From Blastocystis hominis (taxonomy: Eukaryota; Sar; Bigyra; Opalinata; Blastocystidae), in NCBI RefSeq assembly GCF_000151665.1, contig NW_013171827.1:1323066-1387065 (forward strand): a DNA stretch of 64,000 nucleotides, read 5' to 3'. Positions 9,805-42,209 of the stretch are shown piece by piece. Numbering within the stretch: the first letter of the stretch is position 1; each line of letters starts with the position of its first letter. The notes below the pieces were generated by a model. It worked only from the letters and a program-made list of their open reading frames with translations, made no database searches and was not told the origin of the DNA. The position numbers were made by a program, and so were the translations under genes.

Positions 9805-12141
9805 ATGCCTTCGAAGAGGGTAAATAGGAAAAATGTATGGATTATAGTAAGCATTCATTCTAGTTGGAAGCAGAGAGAAAAAGCCTTCCTGTGTTTGCCT
9901 ATCGGAAAGACATTATTGAATCAGTAAAGAATAATCCCACTACAATTATTGTTGGAGAAACAGGAAGTGGAAAAACAACTCAAATTGCCCAATACCTGCT
10001 AGAATCTGGTTATTTTAAGTAAATACATTTCTTATCGATTATATATAGTGATGGTGTTATTGGAATTACTCAACCGCGTCGTGTGGCTGCCATCACTGTA
10101 GCCAAGCGAGTTGCTGAAGAAAGAGGAACAGAACTTGGAGACGAGGTTGGCTACAGTGTTCGATTCGATGAATGCACCTCAATGAACACTTGTATCAAGT
10201 TCCTAACAGATGGAATGCTCCTTCGTGAAGCCATGCTGGACCGTGAATTATCCCAGTACGCATTCAATCAGAAAAACTAAAATTTCAGATATAGTGTGCT
10301 AATCCTCGATGAAGCACACGAACGATCCCTTCAAACCGATATTCTGTGTTCTTTCATCCGCTATGTACAGCAAAGCCGAAAAATCCGTTTGATCGTGATG
10401 AGTGCCACCATTCAATGCGAACTATTCGAAAATTTCTTTTATCCAAACCACTCTGGATCGAATTTCCCAAACCACATCATTCAAATCAAAGGCCGCACTT
10501 TCCCCGTTGAGATCTAGTCTTTGTTTGGAATGAAATAAACGATAGTTACACACCCACACCCGAACCAGACTATTTAGAAGCTGCTTTAATCGCCATTCTC
10601 CAAGTACTCATTCATTCTCTTCTTCTCATTCTTTCAGATCCATTTAGATCTTCCCACTGGCGATATTCTCGTGTTTCTCACCGGTCAAGAAGAAATTGAA
10701 TCACTGGCAGAAATGCTGGAAGAAAAGCTTCCTCTCTTCCCGAAAGACGCCAAATCGCTTCTGATTTATCCACTCTACGCAGCCTTGCCTCCCGAACAAC
10801 AATTGGCCGTGTTTACTCCCACGCCTCCCGATTCGCGCAAAGTGATTCTGTCTACGAACATCGCGGAATCGTCGGTGACAATCCAAGGCATCAAATACGT
10901 CGTGGACAGCGGTATGATCAAAATCCGCGTGTCGCAAACGACCACCGGACTCGAATCGCTTCTCGTCACGCCCGTTTCGAAGTCACATGCGTGGCAACGA
11001 TCGGGACGAGCAGGTCGTGAAAGTGCTGGGAAGGTAGATTTGATCAAACGATGAGACGCAGTGCTTTCGCTTGTTTCCTGAAGACGCGTTTCTCGCTCTT
11101 CCTGAAGACGCAGTGCCCGAAATTCAGCGATGCAATTTGAGCAGCATGATTCTTCAGGTGTGTCGTGGGTTATTGAATGGAACATAGCTGAAAACGATGG
11201 GGATCGAGGACGTTTTGGGGTTCCACTATCTGCAAGCTCCTTCGCGCGATTCGCTCAAACGATCGTTGGAGCAGCTGCTTCTCTTGGGGGCTCTGGATCG
11301 CCGATCTGTAATGAAGAGGTCTGGTTTGGATGTAGGGATCGCTGACCAAGCTGGGGAGAGAAATGGCGCTGCTTCCTTTAGATCCGCTATACTCCCGCCT
11401 GCTGATTCTGAGCAAAGAATACCACTGTTCGGCTGAGGTAGATGCGGATATGGATGAATGATGGAAAGATTCTGGATATCGTGTCGATTCTGTCTGTGGA
11501 AAATGTCTTTTATTCTCCACGCGAGGAGCGAGAGAAAGCCAACGTGTCGCACAAACGATTCGCTTCCGTGTATGGAGATCATTTGACTTATTTGAATGTC
11601 TTCCATGCCTATCGGTAGTCACCCATTTGGACATATCAACAATAGAGAGGAAAAAGGGAATGTTCAGTGGTGTCATGATAATTATATCAATTCTCGATCG
11701 ATGAAGACTGCTGTGGAAATTCGCAAGCAACTCGTTGGCTATTGCCAGAAAATTGGAATTGAAGAAATCGTAACCTGCGTTGTGATTTCGTTGATTAGAG
11801 CTGCGAAGGGGAATTCGATCAGGTTCGGCGTTGTTTGGCTGCTGGAATGTTCGTGCAGGTTGCGAATCGAGTGAAGGAGGTTGTGAAGAACAGTCGGTGT
11901 GAATATCAAACCATTATAGGTCACAAAACGGCAGCCATCCATCCAGCCTCCGTTCTTTTTCAGAGGAAACCATACCCTGATGCGATTGTTTATACCATAT
12001 CCAAATAGAGAGAAGGAGGGCTGTCCTTAACGGAGCAGGAGCTTGTGTACACGACAAAGGAATACTTTAGAGGAGTAACAGCGATTGAAGCAGCTTGGCT
12101 TCCTGAGCTGATACCTGAATGGTTTAGTTCGAAGAGTAATT
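9805..12141 (+). CDS. DHX33: DEAH-box RNA helicase, DHX33-like
   Basis: Thirteen exons (introns 9835-9863, 10019-10048, 10256-10288, 10517-10545, 10604-10637, 11034-11061, 11158-11187, 11308-11335, 11438-11468, 11615-11645, 11770-11798 and the unusual 11997-12038). Helicase motifs in order: [59 protein letters not shown]. The C-terminal half matches DHX33 more than PRP2/16/22/43: RKSLPVF start, [31 protein letters not shown] and [13 protein letters not shown]. There is no extended N-terminus; the protein begins at the helicase core. DHX33 acts in ribosome biogenesis and RNA sensing in animals; a ribosome role is inferred. The frame ends at AAT then T, four bases before TGTTTGTT (12146), so the stop is TAA made by polyadenylation. 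Confidence 0.88.
11997..12038 (+). other. Candidate U12-type (AT-AG) intron in the DHX33-like gene
   Basis: A 42-nt segment with an in-frame TAG interrupts [12 protein letters not shown], a stretch that is continuous in DHX33. It begins ATATCC, the U12 5' splice-site core. It carries TCCTTAAC, the U12 branch-site consensus, about 8 nt before its terminal AG. No GT donor gives a comparable protein: the GT-AG alternatives (21 or 51 nt from 11988) either insert or delete family residues. Confidence 0.6.
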
Positions 12142-12145
12142 TGGA

Positions 12146-12153
12146 TGTTTGTT
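12146..12153 (+). terminator. TGTTTGTT 3'-end motif of the DHX33-like gene
   Basis: Exact octamer; the genome has no in-frame stop before it. The next in-frame stop is TAG at 12181. 12184-12972 downstream is AT-rich with no supported gene. Confidence 0.65.
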
Positions 12154-12972: not shown

Positions 12973-14787
12973 ATGCAAAACATTGTTGATTTTGCCAATT
13001 CTGTTAGTAGTAACTATCAAGTAGACAGTTCTATCATTCAAATTGTTCAGGCATGCTTGGGGAAAGCAATGAAACCATATGGCTGGATTTCACTTATATT
13101 GAGTAATGGAGAATGTGTAGTATTGCAATTCGATAATGAAATATTCATGAATCAAGGATTTGTGGTCAATGAACAGAAAGTGTTGAAAGTGTTTGGAAAT
13201 CATCAAATTGGTGCTATTTCATATAATGAAGAACAATCCATAGAAATAGTAGAAGGAATCGTGGATTTAGATCATGGAAGTCGATTTGAAGGATTGATAT
13301 TGGCAGAAAACAAGTTTGGAATTCCATTTGGATATGGTGAAATGTATGATGATGATGGATTCTTGGTGTACAAGGGCATAATGATCAATTGGAAACGATT
13401 TGGATATGGAACGAGTTATCATGATAATGGATGTATTGAATATGAAGGATATTGGTGTGATGATAAGCGATTTGGAAGCGGCATTGTGTATGATCGATCA
13501 GGTAAATTAGTGAATGAATGTGAATGGTATAACGGAATTGAAAGCGATATTGATTATGAAGGAGATGGAAGCAAACCAATGAATATGGGAGTGAAACATT
13601 TGAAACTGAGTAACAATTGTGTATTGGTTGATTGGGATGTTTCATTGTTGTATAATTTGGAATCAATCGAAATCGGCAATGAATGTTTTGAATCAGTGCA
13701 AACATTCAAAATTGATAGATTGAATCAATTGAAAAGCCTGAAAATCGGAAACAATTCATTTACTCAGAGAAAGAATGAAGAGGATTATGATAAATCGAAA
13801 TCATTCCACATATTGAATTGTGAATCATTGGAATCCATTCAAATTGGTCGATATAGTTTCAGTGATTTTGGAGGAGACTTTGAATTGAAAAATCTACCAC
13901 AATTACAATCCATTCAAATTGGAATAATTGGAAGTGAATCATGCAATTTCAATGCTAATTCATTTGTGCTTCGAGGTATTGATATGATATTGAATATTTG
14001 AATGATGCATAGATCTTCCAAATCTACAATCCATTACATTAGGTGATTATGCATTCTATAGATCCTTATCGACAGTAATTGAAAGTATTGAATGAATTGG
14101 ATTGAAATGATTGATGTAGATCTTCCATCATTAGAATCCATTCAACTCGGTAAATATGCACTTGAAGGAAGAGATTATTATTCAAGTTCATTGATAATGC
14201 GAAGTAATAATGAAATGATTCGAAAGATATGCTTTGTAGATCTTCCAAATCTAACATCAATCACTTCTGAAAAATATAGTTTCTATAATCCTCGTTGGGT
14301 GACATTGGAAAGTATTTCTGCATATTGAATATTGATAGTATTTAGATATTCCAAATCTTCGAAATGTCAAACTACCTAGTTCATTCAAGAAAGTTCGATC
14401 GAGATCAATATTGAGTATAGTTTGATTGATTTGATTTGATTCATAGATGTTTCTTCGATTCTGGTTGATCTTGTAAATCAAATGACTGATTCCGATTCCG
14501 ATTCCGATTCCGATTCCGATTCCGATTCCGATTCTGATTCTGATTCTGATTCTGATTCTGATTCTGATTCTGATTCTGATTCTGATTCTGATTCTGATTC
14601 CGATTCCGATTCTGATTCCGATTCCGATTCCGATTCTGATTCTGATTCTGATTCCGATTCCGATTCCGATTCATATTCCGATTCCGATTCATATTCCGAT
14701 TCCGATTCATATTCCGATTCCAATTCATATTCCGATTCCAATTCATATTCCGATTCCGATTCATATTCTGATTCATATTCTGAATAA
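12973..14787 (+). CDS. MORN + leucine-rich-repeat protein with Ser-Asp tail (copy 1)
   Basis: Six exons (introns 13976-14012, 14085-14119, 14204-14239, 14312-14345, 14415-14446) give 546 aa. Order: unique N-terminus; MORN-like repeats about residues 110-195 ([42 protein letters not shown]); BspA-like LRRs from about 215 ([31 protein letters not shown]); then exons 2-5 that each encode one LRR beginning D/N-LP; then a C-terminal Ser-Asp repeat of roughly 100 residues from 14482. All internal introns are phase 1 and abut ATCTTCCA-type codons. No signal peptide is obvious, so membrane exposure is uncertain. The LRR type is common in surface or interaction proteins of anaerobic protists. Encoded TAA, then TGTTTGTT at 14835. 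Confidence 0.8.
14482..14784 (+). repeat. GATTCY hexanucleotide array encoding Ser-Asp repeats
   Basis: About fifty copies of GATTCC/GATTCT, passing into GATTCATATTCC-type units at the 3' end (Ser-Tyr-Ser-Asp). The array lies in frame with the last exon of the LRR gene. All six frames are open across it, so antisense Glu-Ser and Asn-Arg ORFs here are by-products. Confidence 0.9.
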
Positions 14788-41395: not shown

Positions 41396-41784
41396 TACCA
41401 TAAACAGCATAGGTTAGCATATTAATATATAGTTAATATTTCACACCAAATTTCTTATAATGAGCAAAAAACTAGTTATCCAATGTCAGCAACAGCAATA
41501 GAAACTAAATATTAGGGTCAACAACGAGCTGTTGGTTCGCAACTGACAGGGTCTGAAGAATAACTCTAACCTAATATGGCCCAAAGCATATAAAAACGCG
41601 CAATAGGCATCCGTATGAAACAAAAAGCTCACTCATTCATTCACTCGCTCAGTAAATTGATATGATGATAAAAGAAGAAGAGAAATGAAATGAAAAGAAT
41701 TGAGTGTAATTGAAATGGAGTGTGAGTGAATGAGTGATGATAAGAATGTGATATTTAAATAGGCAATTGAATAATAATAAAATG

Positions 41785-41900
41785 AGAACGGCCATATCTG
41801 ATGGAAAGCGCCCTAACCCGTCCGATCTAGGAAGCTAAGTCATCACGAGTCGAGTTAGTACCAGTGTGGGTGACTCGCTGAGAAGTCTCGATGCTGTTCT
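41785..41900 (+). rRNA. 5S ribosomal RNA
   Basis: About 116 nt with the eukaryotic 5S order: ACGGCCAT near the 5' end, CCGTCCGATCT, GGAAGCTAAG (internal control region), GTTAGTACC and a 3' end that pairs with the 5' end (AGAACGGC with GCTGTTCT, one G-U). A TTTT pol III terminator spans 41900-41903. It stands alone in AT-rich DNA beside element B, not in an rDNA unit. The ends are inferred from the terminal helix. 41396-41784 and 41905-42205 hold no other gene I can support. Confidence 0.92.
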
Positions 41901-42209
41901 TTTACTCCAATATTCTATTCTATTCCATCCATTCTATTCTATTTTCCATTTTCCATTTTTACATTCTATTCCACACTCTCATTTTTTCATTCATTCATCA
42001 TTTTTGGCAATAATTGGCATTCAAATACGATTTCTTCCATTCGATTCTTCCCAATAAATCAAAGTTATTAAAGAGTATAGTGCAATTACTACTCACAAGT
42101 TTTCGTCATTCATCGATTGATTACTTTTGTACCTCAGTAATCGTTCGTTAAGACCCAATTTCAGACCTTTTTTATCGAACCCAGCGTCAAAAACTCATTC
42201 ATTACTAAC

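Follow-up and report, generated by a model that had tools for sequence, protein, structure and literature searches.

A 42-nt interruption in a DHX33-like helicase gene of Blastocystis hominis, very probably a U12-type AT-AG intron

In the window (the whole stretch of Blastocystis hominis DNA analysed, 64,000 nt), positions 11997–12038 very probably (roughly 0.93) constitute a U12-type AT-AG intron, of the kind removed by the minor spliceosome, within a gene for a DHX33-like helicase. This assignment, which a first-pass annotation of the same DNA had already put forward and which is supported here, relies on the sequence motifs, the reading frame and the protein restored by removal, together with matches to four minor snRNAs, one minor-specific protein (25 kDa) and similar candidate introns elsewhere in the genome. 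From the sequence we infer the splicing event, the branch adenosine and the choice between two AGs at the 3′ end.

Architecture of the helicase gene and of its interruption

By comparison with homologues, the gene is DHX33/DHR2/DEAH10-like and belongs to the DEAH-box class. Its features are as follows.

9805..12141 (+): DHX33/DEAH10-like DEAH-box helicase gene with 12 introns, from the spliced frame and homologues; the start codon was chosen, at about 9805
9835..9863 (+): intron 1, GT-AG, 29 nt, from the spliced frame, as for introns 2 to 11
10019..10048 (+): intron 2, GT-AG, 30 nt
10256..10288 (+): intron 3, GT-AG, 33 nt
10517..10545 (+): intron 4, GT-AG, 29 nt
10604..10637 (+): intron 5, GT-AG, 34 nt
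11034..11061 (+): intron 6, GT-AG, 28 nt
11158..11187 (+): intron 7, GT-AG, 30 nt
11308..11335 (+): intron 8, GT-AG, 28 nt
11438..11468 (+): intron 9, GT-AG, 31 nt
11615..11645 (+): intron 10, GT-AG, 31 nt
11770..11798 (+): intron 11, GT-AG, 29 nt
11997..12038 (+): very probable U12-type AT-AG intron, 42 nt, phase 0, from motifs, frame and alignment
11997..12002 (+): U12-type donor core ATATCC, followed by AAAT, from the sequence
12006..12008 (+): in-frame TAG, a stop if the intron is retained, from the sequence
12024..12031 (+): putative branch-site motif TCCTTAAC, complementary to GTAAGGA in the genome's U12 snRNA
12033..12038 (+): tandem 3′ splice site GAGCAG, with the second AG at 12037–12038
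12146..12153 (+): TGTTTGTT polyadenylation element, 4 nt past 12141, where the poly(A) site is presumed to lie, by the rule given in PMC4159000

A single open frame results when the 11 GT-AG introns and the 42-nt AT-AG stretch are taken out. All 11 GT-AG introns measure 28–34 nt, as previously described, and the 42-nt interruption likewise proved real: it carries an in-frame TAG, lies in phase 0 and, once removed, restores a conserved protein block. The stop codon of the gene is probably completed by polyadenylation, AAT T (ending at 12141) plus AA giving TAA, a mode of termination described for Blastocystis (PMC4159000). The C-terminal ends of three homologues (P0001, P0003 and P0004) coincide with the gene end at 12141, and the public ST7 model P0002 runs beyond this proposed stop. 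Downstream of the helicase, the region 13000–14500 contains LESIQIG-like repeated motifs and by eye resembles a leucine-rich-repeat gene; further along the window, a 5S rRNA gene lies at 41784–41902 (89.2 bits).

The consensus of U12-type donors is [AG]TATCC(TTT). The helicase donor, whose full string is ATATCCAAAT, matches the core in six of six positions (ATATCC) and has AAA in place of TTT; both motifs named in the first-pass annotation, ATATCC and TCCTTAAC, are thus present, with the usual T run missing after the former. A branch motif complementary to U12 lies near the 3′ splice site, its last A being 8 nt from the intron end at the second AG and 5 nt from the first AG. Use of the second AG restores the protein without extra residue, whereas the first AG (12035) adds one Q (VYTQELVYTT). 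No polypyrimidine tract is evident by eye in the 42 nt. The window contains the combination ATATCC N8-38 TCCTTAAC a single time, against a mean of 0.01 in 100 dinucleotide shuffles of the window, one of which contained a match.

Two more copies of the helicase gene were observed at G000:C39:558580 and G000:C39:596380, on opposite strands, in inverted orientation with about 38 kb between them. They are 97.6% and 98.1% identical to the helicase of the window across about 3 kb, and the 42-nt stretch is identical in all three copies; in view of the overall identity, this shared stretch says little about selection.

Protein evidence at the junction and alternative readings

Sixteen homologues, picked from the 120 that were listed, were aligned. 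In 14 of them the block [V/I/L/M/F]Y[T/N/S][E/D][L/V] runs through with nothing missing or inserted. The other two sequences, P0002 (ST7) and P0005 (ST1), are gene models, and both depart exactly at the intron site. P0002, from Blastocystis hominis itself, is 99% identical to the helicase over 83% of the query, so that the genome is probably that of subtype 7 or of a close relative. Its residues at the junction are those produced by removal of 48 nt from the GT at 11988 to the AG at 12035; the public ST7 model thus appears to have been spliced as a 48-nt GT-AG intron, with loss of conserved residues. P0005 diverges immediately after PEAI, which suggests that the ST1 helicase gene is interrupted by an intron in this position or close to it. 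By comparison, P0001 (83% identical over 97% of the query) reads AIVYTELVYTTKDY continuously across the junction; since the contig from which it comes (2089 nt) is about as long as its 672 codons, the source sequence is probably a transcript. The finding corrects the public ST7 gene model, at the place where the ST1 model departs as well.

As a U2-type GT-AG intron, none of the three in-frame options examined (21, 48 and 51 nt) fits the site, since all replace or delete conserved residues. The major-spliceosome intron that P0002 implies, of 48 nt (11988–12035, +), or its 51-nt variant (11988–12038), has its GT and its AGs at 12035 and 12038 in frame, and the 48-nt form gives exactly the residues of P0002. 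It is nonetheless very unlikely, because the conserved VYT would become Q or be deleted in a block that is ungapped in 14 of 16 homologues, because 48–51 nt is far beyond the 28–34 nt of the 11 other GT-AG introns of the gene, and because the ATATCC/TCCTTAAC pair would be a coincidence; moreover, P0002 is a gene model, and the ST7 annotation is called inaccurate in many cases in PMC5608401. The shorter GT-AG option of 21 nt (11988–12008) is also in frame and would remove the TAG, with ten residues replacing VYT; an insertion of this sort is found in none of the 14 continuous homologues and the intron would be shorter than the others of the gene, which leaves this option scarcely credible.

A U12-type intron with the same AT donor and a different end is improbable too, if somewhat less so than the 48- or 51-nt intron. 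The AT-AG end at 12035 (39 nt, used alone or as an alternative) and the AT-AC end at 12050 (54 nt) both keep the frame, and AT-AC introns predominate in ST1 (PMC10639083). However, the 39-nt form adds a Q present in none of the 14 continuous homologues and shortens the branch distance to 5 nt, compared with 6–9 nt in six other candidate introns of the genome, while the 54-nt form deletes the conserved ELVY. As for a stretch that is no intron at all (a gene copy that has been disabled, an error in the assembly or readthrough of the stop codon), the existence of three near-identical copies means that one could decay; yet the same stretch stands in all three, the remaining frame stays undamaged across the 11 other introns and the ST7 model, too, leaves this place out, so that such an explanation is hardly tenable.

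Minor-spliceosome components and similar introns in the genome

The snRNAs were sought in the assembly with Rfam covariance models, a search that the first-pass annotation had recommended. One U12 snRNA (64.6 bits, cut-off 53), one U6atac snRNA (61.6 bits, cut-off 33) and one U11 snRNA (49.5 bits, cut-off 39) score above their cut-offs. U4atac stays below the gathering score (42 bits versus 53, E 6e-5), which counts against the U12-type reading; a computed U4atac/U6atac duplex of 14 bp is possible (−26.3 kcal/mol). The search for minor-specific proteins covered the U11/U12 25 kDa protein alone: the genome contains a match to PF18036 (E 1.8e-15), and the best solved relative of this stretch is named U11/U12 small nuclear ribonucleoprotein 25 kDa protein (E 1.2e-8). 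The absence of all minor-spliceosome components, on which the earlier reading was to fall, was thus looked for, and components were found instead.

An element AACCCATAA starts 58–68 nt upstream of the Rfam match at the U12, U6atac, U4atac, U11 and U6 genes (loci L001, L002, L018, L019 and L058). The 246,785 bases scanned, a total in which loci partly overlap, contain it six times: once at each of the five snRNA genes and once at L026, a second instance of the U6atac gene and not a separate sixth site. Its shared position argues that all five snRNA genes are genuine, and it is likely to be an snRNA promoter element; no Blastocystis paper on it appears among the literature matches listed.

With these components, ATATCC and TCCTTAAC would be recognised by U11 and U12, U12 pairing with the branch motif (computed at −6.5 kcal/mol) so that one A is bulged as nucleophile, and U6atac with U5 would catalyse excision to the second AG of GAGCAG. 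Excision would join ...IVYT to ELVYTTKEY, and intron retention would yield a helicase truncated at the TAG at 12006. The predicted pairing of U11 with the helicase donor is weak (−2.3 versus −8.3 kcal/mol for a full consensus donor) owing to the AAAT that follows ATATCC, a further point against the U12-type reading.

Pattern scans covered the genome of 18.7 Mb in 40 contigs. The scan for ATATCC followed by TCCTTAAC, also proposed in the first-pass annotation, gave 15 matches versus 3 for the reversed control pattern; the 15 amount to 12 distinct places, as three are the helicase copies and two are copies of one other place. The pattern ATATCCTT with CCTTAAC gave eight matches versus none in the control, and ATATCCTTN{0,30}TTCCTTAAC, which was too strict, gave none. 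A GTATCC donor with TCCTTAAC was matched once in the genome versus three times in the control, which gives no hint that GT-type minor introns are built on this branch motif. The looser pattern ATAT N12-40 TCCTTAAC had 56 matches versus 121 in the control, so that it is not enriched overall and most of its matches are due to chance. Fifteen of the 56 begin with ATATCC (12 distinct without the gene copies), as against an expectation of about 3.5 with an even distribution of the two bases after ATAT.

Ten exon joins were made at nine loci and seven candidates were scanned with Pfam. A family scores above cut-off across the junction in four of the seven (L014, L021, L024 and L011). In L021 (AT-AG, 40 nt) IP_trans spans the junction (1.6e-24), and in L024 (AT-AC, 40 nt) RRM_5 does so (9.2e-7). 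L014 (AT-AC, 43 nt) has a donor, ATATCCAAAT, identical to that of the helicase intron, and its Glycos_transf_2 match (1.8e-5), with the domain end 11 residues beyond the junction, gives weaker support. The ERAP1_C match of L022 (AT-AG, 45 nt) is below cut-off (3.3e-4), no Pfam family lies across the junction of L020, and the scan of L025 gave a weak match alone (0.018, below cut-off), away from the junction. The branch-to-acceptor distance is 6–9 nt in L014, L020, L021, L022, L024 and L025, which makes the 8 nt and the AG end of the helicase intron look ordinary for this genome.

L011, the fourth candidate whose junction is spanned by a Pfam family, is not counted as support, since the AG join made there encroaches on the YchF-like reading. 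Its gene (around 1500), which matches Pfam MMR_HSR1, is one that we take to encode a YchF-like GTPase; a stretch with ATATCC and TCCTTAAC interrupts it, and the best join may need an AT-AA end. Four other loci (L003, L006, L010 and L013) are without clear intron reading, and five (L004, L007, L012, L017 and L023) look like chance matches inside open coding sequence.

The sole U6atac gene detected (L002, 1501–1617, minus strand; G000:C4:154865–154981) has a peculiarity of its own. The Rfam alignment shows GAGCCGAGAGAAGGUUAGC where the consensus is GAAAGGAGAGAAGGUUAGC, and the three changes all fall within one block, AGCCGA instead of AAAGGA. In other species the AAAGGA block of U6atac pairs with the donor, an interaction with which Incorvaia and Padgett reportedly dealt in 1998. 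The gene keeps intact flanks and intact pairing with U4atac, as well as a TATA-like box, a T run at its end and the shared upstream element. Pairing of a consensus donor is computed at −3.9 kcal/mol with the genome's U6atac versus −7.9 with the Rfam consensus piece, and that of the helicase donor at −0.7 versus −3.4 kcal/mol, the latter counting against the U12-type reading. One of the 56 ATAT N12-40 TCCTTAAC matches begins with ATATCG, G being the base that the altered U6atac would prefer at position +6; when ATATCC is required in the search, the introns obtained vary in the bases that follow it.

It is tentatively proposed, as a possibility on the doubtful side, that pairing between U6atac and the donor has been lost or rebuilt in the minor spliceosome of this Blastocystis. 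The AGCCGA block may instead stem from an error in the assembly, or a second copy may have escaped detection. With at most one mismatch, the U6atac core GAGAGAAGGTTAGC had eight matches in the genome versus 21 in the control, and the U6atac context was found in one of the eight, the known gene itself; the U6atac search with Rfam scored 46 of 913 candidates, so that a divergent copy could be missed. If the proposal were true, donors would be chosen through U11 and proteins, a possible reason why ATATCCAAAT is tolerated; its confirmation would speak to the question whether a minor spliceosome can dispense with the pairing of U6atac with the donor and still work. The change may be new.

Comparison with known minor introns

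That no such intron had been reported in a Blastocystis-like genome, as the first-pass annotation believed, is wrong, because Gentekaki et al. (2017) and Larue & Roy (2023) report them. According to the former (PMC5608401), 346 U12-type introns occur in 319 genes of Blastocystis ST1, the full set of four minor snRNAs is present in ST1 along with seven specific proteins, and both U12-type introns and minor-spliceosome components are reported in ST7. The re-analysis by Larue & Roy (PMC10639083) counts 253 minor introns in ST1, 77% of them (196/253) AT-AC and 49% in phase 0, with a median length of 39 bp; it raises the possibility of false positives among them and argues against it, and it reports the loss in B. 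hominis of 11 of 12 aligned ST1 minor introns. The false-positive question and these losses were counted against the U12-type reading of the helicase intron, as were two statements in a review (PMC3584512), namely that AT-AG termini are disfavoured for U12-type introns and that the optimal branch-to-acceptor distance is 11–13 nt, compared with 8 nt here.

The helicase intron is a new example of a class known in Blastocystis since 2017, as judged from the text of the articles. That Blastocystis has minor splicing is already established; what the helicase gene very probably adds is a minor intron with AT-AG ends, set in a genome whose introns are very short.

Resemblance to the minor introns of Blastocystis ST1 and ST7 extends to genus, class, AT donor, phase 0 and the four minor snRNA matches, and the length of 42 nt is close to the published Blastocystis median of 39 bp, both being very short. 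Unlike 77% of the ST1 set, which is AT-AC, the helicase intron is AT-AG. With U12-type introns in general it shares the donor core, the branch motif and the lack of a clear polypyrimidine tract. From those described in the review (PMC3584512) it differs in its AT-AG ends and in a branch distance of 8 nt instead of the optimal 11–13 nt. The distance called U12-like in the first-pass annotation is thus below the general optimum and within the 6–9 nt range of this genome.
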